Origin: Myxococcota bacterium
GTDB lineage: Bacteria; Myxococcota; Polyangia; GCA-2747355; JAKLHH01
Assembly (NCBI GenBank): GCA_022710245.1
Contig: JAKLHH010000252.1
Coordinates: 1 to 8,717, forward strand
Reading direction: 5' to 3'
Length of the DNA stretch: 8,717 nt
In this document: positions 1,065 through 5,574 of the stretch, piece after piece
Layout of the letters: every line of letters begins with the position of its first letter
How positions within the stretch are numbered: position 1 is the first letter of the stretch
Translations under genes and position numbers: made by a program
Notes under the pieces: model-generated
Database searches by the model: none
Seen by the model: the letters and a program-made list of their open reading frames with translations, nothing else
Told to the model about the DNA's origin: nothing

Positions 1065-1146
1065 GGTGGCTCCGGTGCCCTGAGCAGCACACCAGACAGT
1101 GCTCGGGCCGTCGCGGAGCCACCCAGGGAGAACTCGGGTGGCTTTC
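1065..1146 (+). other. Three-part alternative hairpin upstream of the Y RNA
   Basis: Segment A (1065-1074, GGTGGCTCCG) is the exact complement of segment B (1114-1123), making a 10-bp stem. Inside it an 8-bp stem (1079-1086 with 1100-1107) is capped by a 13-base loop. Segment B also pairs with segment C (1136-1143, GGGTGGCT) through 8 bp plus flanking G-U pairs. The A-B and B-C helices cannot coexist. This could be an attenuator-like switch, a second structured RNA beside Rsr (several bacteria carry more than one Y RNA), or part of a longer precursor. I do not see the Ro60-binding strand motif in it. Confidence 0.4.
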
Positions 1147-1215
1147 GTGTATCTGGGGGATGACGCACAGACGAACTGAGACGGCGTCCGGCCGACAAGG
1201 CCCAACACGCATTAT

Positions 1216-1290
1216 GTTGGTTCAACTCCAACCGCCTCCGCTCCATGGGGGCGTAGCCTAACTGGAAAAGGCACTCGACTTCGGATCGAG
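1216..1290 (+). other. Circularly permuted tRNA-Arg(UCG)-like domain of the Y RNA
   Basis: In standard tRNA numbering, bases 49-65 are at 1216-1232: stem GTTGG/CCAAC with T-loop TTCAACT. Bases 66-72 are at 1233-1239 (CGCCTCC) and position 73 is G1240. A six-base linker CTCCAT (1241-1246) leads to bases 1-7 at 1247-1253 (GGGGGCG), which pair with 66-72 in seven pairs including one G-U. Then come T8 A9, a D-stem GCCT/AGGC around an AACTGGAAA loop (A14, G18, G19, A21 kept), A26, anticodon stem CTCGA/TCGAG, and a seven-base loop CTTCGGA with T33 and anticodon TCG at 1281-1283. The break falls in the variable region, exactly where the Ro60-binding stem is inserted. Nearly every conserved tRNA base is present. 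A linear tRNA search would miss it because the halves are swapped. Confidence 0.92.
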
Positions 1291-1311
1291 CAATCCTCGT
1301 GGCTTTTTCAC

Positions 1312-1333
1312 TCGGGCGCCGTCTCGTTTTTTT
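1312..1333 (+). terminator. 3' end of the Y RNA: stem strand plus T7
   Basis: The 3' strand of the long closing stem (1312-1326) is followed at once by seven T residues (1327-1333). There is no strong local hairpin, so if this is an intrinsic terminator the helix must be the long-range one closed with 1177-1191. Y RNAs elsewhere also end in a U run after the closing stem. Confidence 0.6.
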
Positions 1334-1409
1334 GCTCCTGATGCATTTGTTGGTCGCGGCAGCTACGCCCGACCGCCCGACCTGGGCGGCGCCGCGACGA
1401 TTCGCCCTG

Positions 1410-1444
1410 CTCGCCTCCTCCGAAGGCTCCGCGAGGCAGGCGAG
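1410..1444 (+). promoter_or_regulatory. Leader stem-loop before rsr
   Basis: CTCGCCT-CCTC (1410-1420) pairs with GAGG-C-AGGCGAG (1433-1444) to give 11 base pairs with one bulged C and a 12-base loop. It lies about 30 bases before the rsr ribosome site. There is no T run after it, so it is not an obvious terminator. The bases CCGAAGG (1420-1426) at the loop junction recall the Ro60-binding strand of Y RNAs, so Rsr could bind its own leader; that is speculation. Confidence 0.4.
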
Positions 1445-1474
1445 ATGGTCTATCATCGTTCCCTCTCTCCGACC

Positions 1475-1479
1475 GGAGG
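1475..1479 (+). promoter_or_regulatory. Ribosome binding site that decides the rsr start
   Basis: GGAGG stands 5 bases before the ATG at 1485. The reading frame is open further upstream to a GTG at 1299, but that start has no ribosome site and would translate through the 3' strand of the Y RNA stem. The ATG at 1485 is therefore taken as the true start. Confidence 0.75.
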
Positions 1480-1484
1480 CGCTC

Positions 1485-3278
1485 ATGACGACCACCGTGC
1501 AGACCACGCCGCAGGCCACGCTCCCCGAGGCGCAGCGCGGCCCGGCCGAGATGCTGCTCGACCTCATCCTCCGCTCCGGCGCGCACCTCTGGCACAACCG
1601 GCCCGGCGTCGAGGAGGGCGGCGAGTGGCGCGCGGCGACGCGCGAGGACCGCGCGGGGCGGCGGACCCTGCTCAAGCCGGGGCTCTACCTGCCGTCGGCG
1701 ATCCGCCTCTACCGCGGGCTGCTCGAGATCCACCGGCTCAACGCGGAGCTGATGGCGCACTTCGCGAGCTACGCGATCGTCGGCACCGAGTGGCGCGACC
1801 TCAAGGTCGCCTGCGCGGCGCTGATGCTGGTGCAGCCGCTCGCCGGGCAGCCGGTGAAGGGCGAGGACGGCCGCGTCGAGTTCAACGAGGACGACCACCG
1901 CTCGATCGGTGAGGCGATGCTGCTCCACTACGAGCGCAAGTCGACGAAGAGCATGACGCCGAAGGGCGTGCTGCGCGTGGCGGAGCTGCTGGAGACGCCG
2001 GGGATCGCCCGGCTCAACCGCGAGGCCGGCTTCGCCGACCCGACGGCGCGCAAGCCGCCGCTCGGGCGCTGGCGCCAGGCGGCGACGGCGTGGCTCGAGG
2101 TGCGCGAGAAGAACCTCCCGCTCCTCGAGGGGCTGGTCGCGGCCGGCTACAAGGAGACGATCAAGAAGATCGCGCGCAAGGCCGGCTACAAGCCCGCCTC
2201 GCCGGTCTTCTTCGAGGTGCTCGGCTGGAAGCAGAAGCAGAGCCCGGCGGGCCACCGCGAGGTGGGGCTCGGCGAGCTCACGCTGCGCAAGCACGCGCGC
2301 TTCGACGGCCTCAGCGAGGCGGAGATCTGCGAGCGCATCGTGGACGGCCGCCTCTCCTTCAAGGACGTCACCGGGCGTCTGCCGAAGGAGATCGGCCTGA
2401 CGCCGGCGATCATGGCGACCTGCCTGCCGTCGCTGTCGGACCGCGACCTCAGGCAGCTGACCCCCACGCTCGAGGAGCTCGGGCTCCTCTCGGTGCCCGA
2501 GGTGCGCGCGCGCTGGGAGAAGGCGATCGAGGCGGCGACCGATCAGCGGGCGCTCAACGTGGCGCGCCGCGTGCGCAGCAAGGAGGTGAAGGAGAAGCTC
2601 GAGGAGGCGGCCGACCACGCCGCGCGCAAGGCGGTCAGCGAGTCGAGCGGGGACGACCTGCACGTGATGTTCCTGGTCGACAAGTCGGGCTCCATGCAGG
2701 GCGCGATCGAGCGCTCGAAGGAGGCGCTCGCGCGCATCCTCGCGGGCTTCCCGCTCGAGCGGCTGCACATCGCCAGCTTCGACACGATGGGGACGCGGCT
2801 CGTCCCCAAGGCGGCGACGCGGACGGCGGTGCAGCACCTGCTGGCGAAGCTGGAGGCGGCCGGCGGCACCATCCACGGCTCGGCGGTGCGCGCGCTGGCT
2901 CAGGCGGGCGTGCGCGTGCCGGCGGGCGAGCGGCTGATCGTGATCGTGGTCGGCGACGAGGCGGGCGAGGACGGGGCCAAGCTGGCGGAGACCTTCCGGC
3001 AGTGCGGCTACCAGCCGGCGGCGCTGGCGCTGATCGTCAGCGTCGCGGGCGGGCAGTTCTCGCGCGGGATGACCGTGCGGCAGTGCGCGGCGGCGCTGCA
3101 GGCGCCCTTCGCCGAGGTGGAGGTCGCGCAGTTCGACGACCCCTACCAGGTGCCACGCGTGCTGCGTGCGCTCCTCGACGCGCCGCCGCCGTCGGCGGCG
3201 GTGACGGCGCCGGCGCCGGTGCGGGCCACCTGGGTCGACCGCGTGATGCAGACGCCGCTCCTCGCGCGGGCGCGATGA
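1485..3278 (+). CDS. rsr: Ro60-like protein Rsr (TROVE + vWA)
   Basis: This 597-residue protein matches the Ro60 plan: a helical-repeat TROVE ring that binds 3' ends of misfolded RNA and Y RNA, then a von Willebrand A domain. Residues about 1-385 are helical and Lys/Arg rich, with TROVE-like segments such as WRDLKVACAALML and a block containing TPAIMATCLPSL. The vWA domain starts near residue 390: the metal site DKSGS is D399-K-S401-G-S403, the third-loop GGT has T462, and V-V-G-D491-E-A follows a hydrophobic strand, so all three metal-site elements are kept. Length is somewhat above typical Rsr (about 520-540 residues). No signal peptide, so it is cytoplasmic. The gene follows its Y RNA by about 150 bases and overlaps the next gene by four bases (ATGA), leading a five-gene operon. 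The TROVE call is by pattern; the vWA and the adjacent tRNA-mimic RNA support it strongly. Confidence 0.88.
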   Translation: MTTTVQTTPQATLPEAQRGPAEMLLDLILRSGAHLWHNRPGVEEGGEWRAATREDRAGRRTLLKPGLYLPSAIRLYRGLLEIHRLNAELMAHFASYAIVGTEWRDLKVACAALMLVQPLAGQPVKGEDGRVEFNEDDHRSIGEAMLLHYERKSTKSMTPKGVLRVAELLETPGIARLNREAGFADPTARKPPLGRWRQAATAWLEVREKNLPLLEGLVAAGYKETIKKIARKAGYKPASPVFFEVLGWKQKQSPAGHREVGLGELTLRKHARFDGLSEAEICERIVDGRLSFKDVTGRLPKEIGLTPAIMATCLPSLSDRDLRQLTPTLEELGLLSVPEVRARWEKAIEAATDQRALNVARRVRSKEVKEKLEEAADHAARKAVSESSGDDLHVMFLVDKSGSMQGAIERSKEALARILAGFPLERLHIASFDTMGTRLVPKAATRTAVQHLLAKLEAAGGTIHGSAVRALAQAGVRVPAGERLIVIVVGDEAGEDGAKLAETFRQCGYQPAALALIVSVAGGQFSRGMTVRQCAAALQAPFAEVEVAQFDDPYQVPRVLRALLDAPPPSAAVTAPAPVRATWVDRVMQTPLLARAR

Positions 3279-4300
3279 GCCTCGACTATCGCGCGCTCCT
3301 CGGCAAGGTCGAAGAGCTCACGCTGCCCTGGCTGCAGGGCGACGCGGTGGACGCCCGGGAGCGGCGGCTGCGGCTGCGCGCGCGGCCGGCGGCGCCCGGG
3401 TGGTGGCGGTTTCGCGTCGACGGGCGCTGGGCGAGCCCGCTCGCGCCCGCCGAGCCCGAGCCGGAGCTGCTCCAGGGGCTCGAGCGCGCGAGCGGGCACC
3501 TCGTGGGGGGGCGGCTGGTGCTGGCGGGCGGGGCGGTGGAGCCGGTCTGGCTGCTCCCCGAGGAGGAGCCGCCGCGCTTCGCGCCGTGCCGCGCGCGGCG
3601 GTGGTGGTCGGGAGAGCTCCTCTTCGAGGAGCTGCCCTTCGAGGGCGAGGCGGAGGAGGCGGTGCGGCGGGCCTTCGAGGACGGCCTCGCGCTCGAGGGT
3701 GTGGTCGGGGTGCCGGCGACGCTGCGCGCCGCGTTCGGCCTCACGCTGGTCGAGGCCGCGGCCCGCGCGCAGGGGGCGCGGGTCGCGCCGCTCGAGGTGC
3801 GGCAGCGCCTGGGCGAGGTGGCCGAGGGCGGGCCTGCGCTGGCGGCGGAGGTGGTGCGGGCGCTCCTCGCCGAGCGGGCGCGCGCGACGGCGGAGCGAGA
3901 GGCGGCGCGGCGGGCGGCGGAGGCGGCGCGGCTCGAGGAGCAGCGCCTCTCGGAGCGGCGGGAAGTGGTGGAGCGGCAGCGGGGCAGGGGCCCGGCTCGG
4001 CGCCGCGATCCGCGCGGCGGGAGCGACCCGCGCGAGCGGGTCGAGGAGGCGCTGCGGGGCGCCGGGGCGGCGCTCCTGGATCTGCGCCGGCTCGGCGGCG
4101 ACCAGCTCGAGGTGCGCTGGCGCTTCCTCGGGGAGCGCTTCGTCAGCCTGGTCGAGGCGGGGAGCCTGCGGGTGATCGACGCGGGCATCTGCCTCTCGGG
4201 GACGGACGCGGAGGTGAACCTGGCCAGCCTGCCCGGGGTGGTGCGCGAGGGCGCGGAGCGCGGGCTGCTGGTGATGACGAGGCACGACGAGTATGACTGA
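3275..4300 (+). CDS. Rsr-cassette protein of unknown function, possible E2-like partner
   Basis: The 341-residue product starts inside the rsr stop (ATGA), so the two are translationally coupled. I do not recognise the whole protein. Residues 1-190 are Trp-, Leu- and Glu-rich with a GWWRFRVDG strand near the N-terminus. Residues about 197-255 are a charged Arg/Glu/Ala helix, probably a coiled coil, passing into a basic low-complexity RGRGPARRR stretch that could touch RNA. Residues 256-341 form a compact domain: strands LEVRWRFLG and RFVSLVEA, then VIDAGICLSG with the only cysteine of this domain, Cys306, then helix LPGVVREGAERG. The G-I-C-L motif after a strand hairpin recalls the active-site segment of E2 conjugating enzymes (G-x-ICL). 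An E2 would be the expected missing partner among JAB, Ubl and E1. No HPN motif is visible, and the domain is shorter than a classical E2, so this remains a hypothesis. Confidence 0.8.
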   Translation: MSLDYRALLGKVEELTLPWLQGDAVDARERRLRLRARPAAPGWWRFRVDGRWASPLAPAEPEPELLQGLERASGHLVGGRLVLAGGAVEPVWLLPEEEPPRFAPCRARRWWSGELLFEELPFEGEAEEAVRRAFEDGLALEGVVGVPATLRAAFGLTLVEAAARAQGARVAPLEVRQRLGEVAEGGPALAAEVVRALLAERARATAEREAARRAAEAARLEEQRLSERREVVERQRGRGPARRRDPRGGSDPRERVEEALRGAGAALLDLRRLGGDQLEVRWRFLGERFVSLVEAGSLRVIDAGICLSGTDAEVNLASLPGVVREGAERGLLVMTRHDEYD

Positions 4301-4730
4301 GGCCGCGAAGACCCCGGACGTCGCGACTCGCTCCCGGCTGCGTGAGGTCTGCTTCCTCCTCGACGGGGAGGGGCGGGTGCTCTGGTCGGACGCGTCGGCG
4401 AGCCCGCACGGCCTCCCCGACTCGCGCCAGCGCTGGGAGGCGATCTGGTCGCGGCGCGAGGAGCTCGCGGAGATCGCGCACAGCCACCCGCTCGGGCCGC
4501 TCGCCTTCTCGAGCGAGGACGAGACGACGATGGCGGCGCTGGTGGCGGCGCTCGGGCGGCGGCCGGCGTTCAGCGCGGTGGCGCCGGAGGGCAGCATCCG
4601 GCGCGGGCCGGACGGCCTCGACCGCGTGCTGGCGCGGGGCGAGGAGCCCGCCTGGGCCGAGGAGCTGCGGCGGGCCTCGGGGATGATGCTGGACGACAGG
4701 TTGCAGAACGAAGAGAGAGAGGAGGCTTGA
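4293..4730 (+). CDS. JAB/JAMM-family metallopeptidase (deubiquitinase-like)
   Basis: The 145-residue product carries the JAMM zinc motif H-x-H-x7-S-x2-D exactly: H63-S-H65, then PLGPLAF, S73, S-E and D76. Members of this family are zinc isopeptidases that trim the tail of ubiquitin-like proteins or remove them from targets. The preceding strands LREVCFLLD and GRVLWSDA fit the JAB core. The distal catalytic glutamate is not certain; E26 is the best placed candidate. The C-terminus is helical and charged. The gene overlaps the upstream frame by eight bases (ATGACTGA) and ends one base before the ubiquitin-like gene, which places it with its likely substrate. It is cytoplasmic, with no signal. 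It is close in size to the small prokaryotic JAB proteins of E1/Ubl cassettes. Confidence 0.88.
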   Translation: MTEAAKTPDVATRSRLREVCFLLDGEGRVLWSDASASPHGLPDSRQRWEAIWSRREELAEIAHSHPLGPLAFSSEDETTMAALVAALGRRPAFSAVAPEGSIRRGPDGLDRVLARGEEPAWAEELRRASGMMLDDRLQNEEREEA

Positions 4731-4731
4731 G

Positions 4732-4983
4732 ATGGCGATCCTGAACATCACCTGGAACGGCGTCTCCGCGGAGGCGAAGATCGACGTCGACTACTCGCTC
4801 GGCGACGACGACGTGAAGCACGTGGCGGTGGAGATGATCCGCTCCGGCGACGTGCCGGGGCTGCACGTCGCCGCGCTGCCGGCGAACACCTTCGCCCACT
4901 ACGTGGTCGACCGCTTCGCCACGCCGGACGGCGGGCAGCGCATCTTCCTGCGGCCCAAGGTCCCCTTCGGCGGCGGGCTCTAG
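4732..4983 (+). CDS. Small ubiquitin-like (beta-grasp) protein ending in GGGL
   Basis: An 83-residue protein with a strong ribosome site (GGAGG at 4721-4725, six bases before the ATG). The N-terminus MAILNITWNG followed by AEAKIDVDYSL looks like the first beta hairpin of a beta-grasp fold. A helix (DDDVKHVAVEMIRSG) and further strands (HYVVDRFA, QRIFLRPKV) complete it. The tail is PFGGGL: glycines 80-82 and one final leucine. Ubiquitin-like proteins are activated at a C-terminal Gly-Gly, so either the leucine is removed first, plausibly by the neighbouring JAB protein, or GGGL is the native end. It resembles the prokaryotic Ub-like proteins found in PRTRC-type cassettes next to E1 and JAB genes, as far as I recall that family. 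Its stop codon abuts the E1 start. Targets are unknown; Rsr or Rsr-bound proteins are candidates by context only. Confidence 0.83.
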   Translation: MAILNITWNGVSAEAKIDVDYSLGDDDVKHVAVEMIRSGDVPGLHVAALPANTFAHYVVDRFATPDGGQRIFLRPKVPFGGGL

Positions 4984-5574
4984 ATGCCCCGGCGGATCCT
5001 CTTCTGCGGGGTGGGCGCGCTCGGGTCCACCGCGGCCGTGCTCTGCCGCAACCTGCCGGCCGAGGCGGACGCCGAGCTCGCCTTCGTCGACCTCGACCGC
5101 GTCGAGGCGAAGAACCTCCGCGCCCAGGCCTTCACCAGGCCGGCGGTCGGCAAGAACAAGGCGGAGGCGCTCAAGCTCCAGCTGCACAACCTCTGGGGCG
5201 TGCGCAGCGAGGCCTTCCCGGTGCGGCTCACGGCGGACAACGTGGCCGCGCTCTGCGCGGGCGCGGCGCTCCTCGTCGACTGCTTCGACAACGCGGCCAG
5301 CCGCGAGCTGCTCTCGGCCCACGCGCGGGCGGCCGGCCTGCCGCTCGTCCACGCGGCCCTCTCCGGCGACGGCAGCTTCGGCCTGGTCCGCTGGGACGAG
5401 CGCTTCCGCGCCGACCCCGAGGACCACGAGGGGCAGGCGACCTGCGAGGGCGGCCAGCACCTGCCCTTCATCGGGCTCCTGGCCGCGGGCCTCGCCCGCG
5501 TGATCCAGGACCACCTGCGCGACGGCCGCCGGCGCGACCTGCTGGTCACGCTGAGCAGCGTGCGCGAGACCTGA
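4984..5574 (+). CDS. E1/ThiF-like adenylating enzyme
   Basis: E1-like enzymes use ATP to adenylate the C-terminal glycine of a ubiquitin-like or sulfur-carrier protein. The 196-residue product shows the Rossmann nucleotide loop G9-V-G11-A-L-G14-S, the strand end FVDLDRV (D36, D38), N44-L-R-A-Q48 in place of the usual NLxRQ, VGKNK with K59, and the D-C-F-D102-N103 motif of the family. Cys154 in the segment GQATCEGG is the best candidate for a catalytic cysteine carrying a thioester or acyl-disulfide. No zinc-binding CxxC pairs are seen, and the protein is shorter than ThiF or MoeB (about 245-250 residues), so this is a minimal E1. It follows the Ubl gene with no gap (TAG then ATG), and has no ribosome site of its own, which implies coupled translation. 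Its stop abuts the stop of the convergent peptidase gene. Confidence 0.92.
   Translation: MPRRILFCGVGALGSTAAVLCRNLPAEADAELAFVDLDRVEAKNLRAQAFTRPAVGKNKAEALKLQLHNLWGVRSEAFPVRLTADNVAALCAGAALLVDCFDNAASRELLSAHARAAGLPLVHAALSGDGSFGLVRWDERFRADPEDHEGQATCEGGQHLPFIGLLAAGLARVIQDHLRDGRRRDLLVTLSSVRET

Follow-up and report, generated by a model that had tools for sequence, protein, structure and literature searches.

The stretch analysed here (the window) is 8,717 nucleotides long and comes from contig JAKLHH010000252.1 of a Myxococcota bacterium (assembly GCA_022710245.1). It carries an RNA gene at 1178-1333, about 150 bases upstream of a gene for an Rsr-like protein. Here, we propose that this RNA is very likely a Y-RNA-like mimic of transfer RNA (tRNA) that accompanies a Ro60-fold protein and opens the tRNA backbone at a new place. 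The parts of the RNA gene are:

1178-1333, forward strand: Y-RNA-like RNA gene, basal stem through T-run (permuted-tRNA descriptor, ARAGORN, stem check, covariation; it matches covariance model R1 by construction, as the window is in the training set)
1178-1190 with 1313-1325, forward strand: basal (Y) stem, 13 contiguous pairs, one U-G (stem check)
1191-1196, forward strand: Y-stem internal loop, 5' side GCCGAC, of which GA may pair with 1308-1309 (alignment, RNAalifold)
1197-1202 with 1301-1306, forward strand: second Y helix, 6 pairs (stem check, covariation)
1205-1210, forward strand: conserved element of ACACGC type (a loose pattern matches in 190 of 194 relatives)
1216-1232, forward strand: T arm, 5 pairs (1216-1220 with 1228-1232), loop UUCAACU (stem check, covariation)
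1233-1239, forward strand: acceptor stem, 3' strand (stem check, covariation)
1240-1246, forward strand: linker of 7 nucleotides capping the acceptor stem (2 to 34 nucleotides among 148 window-like relatives)
1247-1253, forward strand: acceptor stem, 5' strand, 7 pairs with 1233-1239, one U-G at 1237-1249 (stem check, covariation)
1254-1255, forward strand: positions 8-9, U8 and A9 (sequence)
1256-1272, forward strand: D arm, 4 pairs (1256-1259 with 1269-1272), loop with A14, G18G19 and A21 (stem check of the first 3 pairs, covariation; the fourth pair, U1259-A1269, read off the sequence)
1274-1290, forward strand: anticodon arm, 5 pairs (1274-1278 with 1286-1290), 7-nucleotide loop CUUCGGA with the triplet UCG at 1281-1283 (stem check, covariation, loop census)
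1307-1312, forward strand: Y-stem internal loop, 3' side UUCACU (alignment)
1327-1333, forward strand: T7 run 3' of the basal stem, probable terminator (sequence)

Within the Y scaffold, the order is T arm, 3' acceptor strand, linker, 5' acceptor strand, U8-A9, D arm, A26 (which separates the D and anticodon arms), and anticodon arm. The original prediction had described four tRNA stems of 7, 4, 5, and 5 pairs with one G-U in the acceptor stem, and all four form where it placed them. The swapped order of the tRNA halves is confirmed, and U8, A14, G18, G19, A21, U33, the T loop UUCAACU, and G53-C61 are present as read from the sequence (tRNA position numbers being assigned by us). The T7 run that it noted after the flanking stem is likewise there, and a scan for short-loop terminators did not pick it up. 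What had been taken for a single 15-bp flanking stem is instead a helix of 13 contiguous pairs, an internal loop to which RNAalifold adds two pairs (1194-1195 with 1308-1309), and then the 6-pair helix. The motif CACUCGG, on the 3' side of the internal loop, is found in 179 of 194 relatives. As in bacterial Y RNAs, the 5' and 3' ends are paired in a long basal stem. A tRNA has a free acceptor end for CCA addition and charging; here the acceptor is capped by the 7-nucleotide linker. Since there is no free 3' end and both ends lie inside the Y stem, the RNA would not serve as an ordinary tRNA without processing.

Evidence for the permuted module comes from pattern searches with controls. A permuted-tRNA descriptor gave 21 matches in 353 kb (the window and 24 loci, both strands counted). 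Sixteen of these form at least 20 of the 21 pairs, and the window module has all 21. First-order Markov sequence (2.82 Mb, again both strands) gave 8 matches, none above 19 pairs. Because the 24 loci include close relatives, the matches are not independent. ARAGORN calls nothing in the window module in its native order and calls tRNA-Arg(tcg), anticodon UCG, once the halves are swapped; of the 17 descriptor matches with at least 19 pairs, 16 are called once rearranged and none in native order. Shuffling the loop letters with the stems intact left 21 of 1020 control modules called (0 of 60 for the window module), and full shuffling left 0 of 1020. The rarity of calls on loop-shuffled modules (21/1020 vs 16/17) means that the loop bases, not the stems alone, are tRNA-like. 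Native Y-stem sequences gave 1 call in 92. The expectation that the element would be invisible to a linear tRNA search holds for ARAGORN and fails for Rfam, whose tRNA model (RF00005) matches 1247-1324 at 31.0 bits against a cut-off of 29, with Y-stem sequence borrowed as T arm, and also exceeds the cut-off in several relatives. We rejected a linear tRNA reading of the window, given the absence of an ARAGORN call in native order and an Rfam match that bypasses the real T arm.

Comparative evidence supports the same fold. In an alignment of 32 sequences (A3, window included) scored with the window's structure, 87.0% of paired cells are paired, as opposed to 70.0% in shuffles, and two-sided changes occur in 31 of 40 pairs. 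The covariation score is 0.476, falling to 0.166 with shuffling and to at most 0.143 when slid. Compensatory changes in the acceptor and flanking stems had been named as a check: all 7 acceptor pairs show two-sided changes, as do all 5 anticodon-stem pairs, while in the basal stem relatives nearly always retain the inner 7 pairs and often leave the outer 6 unpaired. Covariation appears again in 89 matches to R1, the covariance model built from A3, that come from loci without a row in A3 (0.490 vs 0.153, in an alignment itself fitted to the model). Among the tRNA stems, pairing is least kept in the D stem (77.3% of cells). Unguided RNAalifold on the alignment recovered the Y helices and the T, acceptor, and anticodon stems, and did not recover the D stem.

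Downstream of the RNA lies a series of protein genes:

1485-3278, forward strand: Rsr-like protein, 597 amino acids, VWA domain, Ro60 fold (family searches, predicted model, structural matches)
3275-4300, forward strand: open reading frame 2 (ORF2), 341 amino acids (84 of 89 loci, downstream of rsr)
4293-4730, forward strand: JAB-domain protein (82 of 89 loci)
4732-4983, forward strand: 83-amino-acid protein ending in FGGGL, probably ubiquitin-like (12 of 89 loci)
4984-5574, forward strand: ThiF/E1-like protein (11 of 89 loci)

The Rsr-like protein is recognised by its structure. Its predicted model (pLDDT 77, pTM 0.58) has structural matches to 9kop, 2nvo, and 1yvp that cover a Ro60 fold plus VWA domain over the full length. 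The Pfam TROVE model gave no match up to E 10, VWA models or weak unrelated ones being found instead, and no Rsr is among the protein's sequence matches in the PDB. The claim that a Y RNA stands here beside an Rsr gene is thus upheld by the fold of the neighbour and by co-occurrence: across 195 genomes from the phylum, 75 of the 76 with the Rsr-like gene have a strong RNA match, as does 1 of the 119 without it. The longer frame at 1299-3278, which had been judged a spurious extension, fits that description, as alignments counted from the 1485 start begin at residue 1-2 in 11 of 24 relatives and at residues 3-13 in 12, the remaining relative (L024) being a partial match. The Rsr-like gene, ORF2, and the JAB gene form a common neighbourhood across the 89 loci with enough sequence (some genomes being counted twice). 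For ORF2, no family and no significant PDB fold match were found (best E 0.05), and the 83-amino-acid protein had no match in family searches. In PADLOC, the E1-like protein matches E1-E2 models weakly and the other four proteins match none. On the 5' side of the RNA, a promoter-like TTGACG-16-CACAAT lies at 966-993, about 185 bases away and above shuffled expectation. The adjoining 1053-1155, unmatched by the Y RNA model, is rich in inverted repeats and, by eye, ends in a hairpin GCCACCC/GGGTGGC and then TTTCGTGT.

How does this RNA relate to YrlA? YrlA Y RNAs are already known to mimic tRNA in permuted form. One report gives YrlA a circularly permuted tRNA fold (PDB 6CU1; PMC11472068), and another describes an RNA that resembles the D, T, and acceptor arms and tethers Rsr to PNPase through its tRNA-like domain (PMC8394870). 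The window RNA shares with YrlA (RF02553; Salmonella module PDB 6CU1) a basal stem, a nearby Ro60-type partner gene, and the permuted module of T arm, capped acceptor, and D arm. In Rfam's YrlA structure line, a helix closes this module where the anticodon stem would be, which is thereby opened into the basal stem. In contrast, the window family breaks the backbone in the variable region and keeps a complete anticodon arm (in the window, a hairpin of 5 bp and 7 nucleotides with no closing helix of at least 4 pairs), and its basal-stem sequence differs. The Rfam YrlA model ranks second among the matches to window 1100-1400 and scores 21.9 bits against a cut-off of 69, its match running from the T arm to the D arm. 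Relatives reach up to 45.6 bits, always below the cut-off, and in 8 of the 11 genomes searched the rsr locus holds the top genome-wide match. Hence the original assignment to YrlA-type Y RNAs stands as regards the permuted module beside a Ro60-fold gene and is weakened by the RF02553 score, for which reason we consider the RNA a YrlA variant and not plain YrlA. Its unusual completeness as a mimic, also part of that prediction, is a real difference from Rfam's YrlA: a 5-pair anticodon hairpin is present in 113 of 148 window-like RNAs, 93 of these with a 7-nucleotide loop, and in 0 of 10 parsed YrlA copies from 398 Pseudomonadota genomes (3 above cut-off; 1 of 11 rows dropped as non-YrlA). With 4 pairs allowed, 4 of 10 such copies can form a weak hairpin, none with a 7-nucleotide loop (2 of 12 rows dropped). 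A literature search, with the primary YrlA papers outside its reach, recognised no description of anticodon-bearing copies.

Other systems resemble the locus in part. The Deinococcus Y RNA and its Rsr-Y RNA-PNPase machine (RYPER), as the literature presents them, share a Ro60-type protein with a Y RNA as tether. The window protein differs in being too divergent for Pfam TROVE and in standing with ORF2 and JAB genes. Circularly permuted tRNA genes exist in algae and archaea, where the product is a working tRNA. In those genes, too, the 3' half precedes the 5' half; the window module differs from them in its Y scaffold, its variable triplets, and its break in the variable region. We know of no tmRNA or viral tRNA-like structure with a Ro60-type partner or a full permuted cloverleaf with an anticodon loop. 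What these have in common with the window RNA is a tRNA shape outside decoding (ARTEMIS).

The RNA copies are multiple and dispersed. At E 1e-9, R1 has 108 matches in 66 of 88 rsr loci, and at least 75 further loci, most of them away from rsr, hold at least 89 more; 66 of the 75 come from places listed in a genome search, outside rsr stretches, and the census is a lower bound. Weaker matches were discarded. The limit is not perfectly clean (five weak matches are pairs of ordinary tRNAs, one at E 9.8e-11), yet every match kept spans the whole model. The class and motif counts are based on 194 distinct RNAs (relatives plus window; at least 194 in all). Of these, 148 are window-like, the D arm being followed by a hairpin with 4 or more pairs, 23 have the YrlA topology, with the anticodon stem opened into the basal stem, and 23 are unclassified, several of them just outside the thresholds or without a tRNA module. 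In 12 loci (L139, L147, L166, L168-L170, L180, L182, L186, L210, L091, and L099), a window-like copy lies 1 to 5 nucleotides from a copy of other topology (unclassified by the thresholds in L186 and L210), so that a single transcript may contain two mimics that differ in topology. A Y scaffold in L014 (2187-2342) surrounds a tRNA in linear order (ARAGORN tRNA-Ile(tat); Rfam tRNA 47.8 bits), beside a permuted copy at 1982-2145. By eye, L157 1501-1635 has a Y scaffold with an anticodon-arm-like hairpin and then a T arm in linear order, with no clear D arm. Upstream of rsr, L004 (2879-2989), L074, L079, and L129 have short Y-stem RNAs in which no tRNA-like module is recognisable. In the 398 Pseudomonadota genomes, R1 at E 1e-10 finds L014's genome and two marginal places. 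Twenty of 24 relatives in named genomes have myxobacterial titles, and among the 120 protein relatives listed, those with an organism name are mostly myxobacterial.

The anticodon loop combines fixed and variable positions. Counts were made on 125 seven-nucleotide loops among the 148 window-like RNAs, leaving out 23 loops of 6 or 8 nucleotides. A pyrimidine stands at position 32 in 123 of them, U at 33 in 94, a purine at 37 in 113, and A at 38 in 94, and positions 34-36 are nearly free, with 36 triplets, which rules out the decoding of one codon. Any bias toward real anticodons is weak (the host set contains 102 of the 125 triplets, as against 95.8 in shuffles, p 0.028), and exact loop sharing, at 21 of 125, is not above column shuffles (mean 19.6). 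Derivation from one host tRNA was also rejected, long matches being about 72-77% identical (for example 75.7% over 74 nucleotides), which we judged ordinary between tRNAs. That comparison set 14 of the 17 rearranged modules against 97 distinct tRNAs, drawn from four relatives' genomes whose tRNA sets are incomplete and one of which has a non-myxobacterial title.

For 16 closely related genomes, changes were counted as parsimony steps on the rsr tree. The three triplet positions take 5, 6, and 4 steps, positions 32, 33, 37, and 38 take 2, 1, 4, and 3, the anticodon stem takes none, and the rest of the RNA averages 0.36. By comparison, 291 four-fold sites, which in GC-rich genomes are not strictly neutral, average 0.75 steps, and 0 of 20,000 random triples reach 15. 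The triplet also exceeds 135 upstream intergenic columns (average 1.99; P 0.006). Pairwise diversity is 0.592 for the triplet and 0.131 for four-fold sites; we do not claim positive selection from this measure alone, upstream intergenic DNA being nearly as diverse (P 0.019), and the tree count is the stronger of the two. In five other orthologous groups, the loop is variable and the stem fixed (the stem has a diversity of 0 in four groups and of 0.056 in the remaining one), with just two loop positions varying in the smallest, of five sequences.

In light of these observations, what might the RNA do? We give a probability of roughly one half to the following reading, which draws on the fold, its covariation, the link to a Ro60-fold gene, the loop rules, and, in one clade, the fast turnover of the triplet: an RNA of a Ro60-type ribonucleoprotein in myxobacteria and relatives, whose tRNA-mimic module acts as bait and whose anticodon loop is a diversifying contact. 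The gene would be transcribed, and the basal stem and conserved internal loop would hold the Rsr-like protein, with 1191-1196 as a candidate binding site. Opening the backbone in the variable region would leave the T arm, capped acceptor stem, D arm, and full anticodon hairpin all displayed. The module may then hold a tRNA-handling enzyme on the Rsr ring, either PNPase, on the model of RYPER, or a nuclease directed at anticodons, with the anticodon loop as the contact that diversifies. A bait or sensor for anticodon-directed enzymes would explain why the loop rules are retained and the triplet is fast. One report suggests that the YrlA tRNA-like domain might competitively inhibit an anticodon nuclease (PMC7790460). 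We are doubtful about a broader version, in which the dispersed, multi-copy, Ro60-tethered look-alikes of myxobacteria, showing entire anticodon loops with triplets under diversifying selection, would form a bait or sensor repertoire for anticodon-directed enzymes whose backbones open at the anticodon loop, in the variable region, or, in one clear case, not at all, the order being linear.

Several observations count against the bait reading. Salmonella YrlA was uncut by the induced nuclease, according to the same report (PMC7790460). Twenty of the 148 window-like loops have 6 nucleotides and 3 have 8; 7 of the 125 seven-nucleotide loops carry stop anticodons and 11 have A34; and U33 is mostly absent from one orthologous group near rsr (3 of 25 have U). 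By pairwise diversity, the triplet ranks only 12th of 2738 locus triplets because some intergenic DNA equals it in diversity (of the 11 triplets ranked above it, 9 are upstream intergenic), and the rate test was chosen after the pattern had been seen. Within the stretch examined, 22 of 88 rsr loci have no R1 match at E 1e-9, and some Y-scaffold RNAs carry no tRNA module. In addition, single-sequence folding favours another fold (-64.5 vs -59.5 kcal/mol for the cloverleaf), with pair probabilities of 0.17-0.19 in the D stem and 0.22-0.27 in the anticodon stem. On this last point we let the comparative evidence decide.

A plain tether of the RYPER kind, holding PNPase or another elbow-binding protein through the D and T arms, with the hairpin as a brace and a drifting loop, is nearly as likely as bait, though we hold it somewhat more tentatively. 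YrlA is reported to use its tRNA-like domain to tether Rsr to PNPase (PMC8394870), and in diversity the triplet stays within what the fastest intergenic DNA shows. Copies of classical topology without an anticodon hairpin adjoin window-like copies, which argues that the hairpin is not always needed. Yet a loop with a purely structural role would be expected to drift at 32, 33, and 37 as well, and these positions mostly keep tRNA rules; on the tree, moreover, the triplet exceeds the intergenic columns (P 0.006).

It is very improbable that the locus works as a circularly permuted tRNA gene, its transcript yielding a translating tRNA-Arg(UCG) after processing. Such genes are known from algae and archaea and ARAGORN accepts the rearranged module, but the break lies in the variable region, the triplets are unconserved and include stop anticodons, few parts are better conserved than the inner Y stem and internal loop, and the RNA tracks a Ro60-fold gene. 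A chance cluster of hairpins or a decayed linear tRNA deserves hardly any credence: RF00005 exceeds its cut-off by 2 bits in the window, and in several relatives, and the folding energy prefers another structure, against which stand the descriptor and shuffle controls, the 194 distinct matches in relatives and window, and the covariation, which in itself contradicts this reading.

A family with a varying triplet makes the purpose of tRNA mimicry by bacterial Y RNAs testable. This family keeps a whole anticodon arm and most of the loop rules, yet its triplet differs between species, and it reveals that the point at which the tRNA backbone is opened can vary on one scaffold. Such RNAs escape ARAGORN and either stay below the Rfam YrlA cut-off or are partly labelled as tRNA, and their partner protein escapes the Pfam TROVE model.

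Two further loci deserve mention. The rsr gene and Y RNAs of L022, a record titled Comamonas sp., resemble those of Myxococcus, and the label or assembly may therefore be wrong. In L001 (1994-2698), a distal Y RNA lies directly 5' of a gene whose product is a calcineurin-like phosphoesterase with similarity to ApaH/PrpE and the phosphatase portion of bacterial Pnkp, in each case below the curated NCBIfam cut-off, which is possibly a link to RNA repair.
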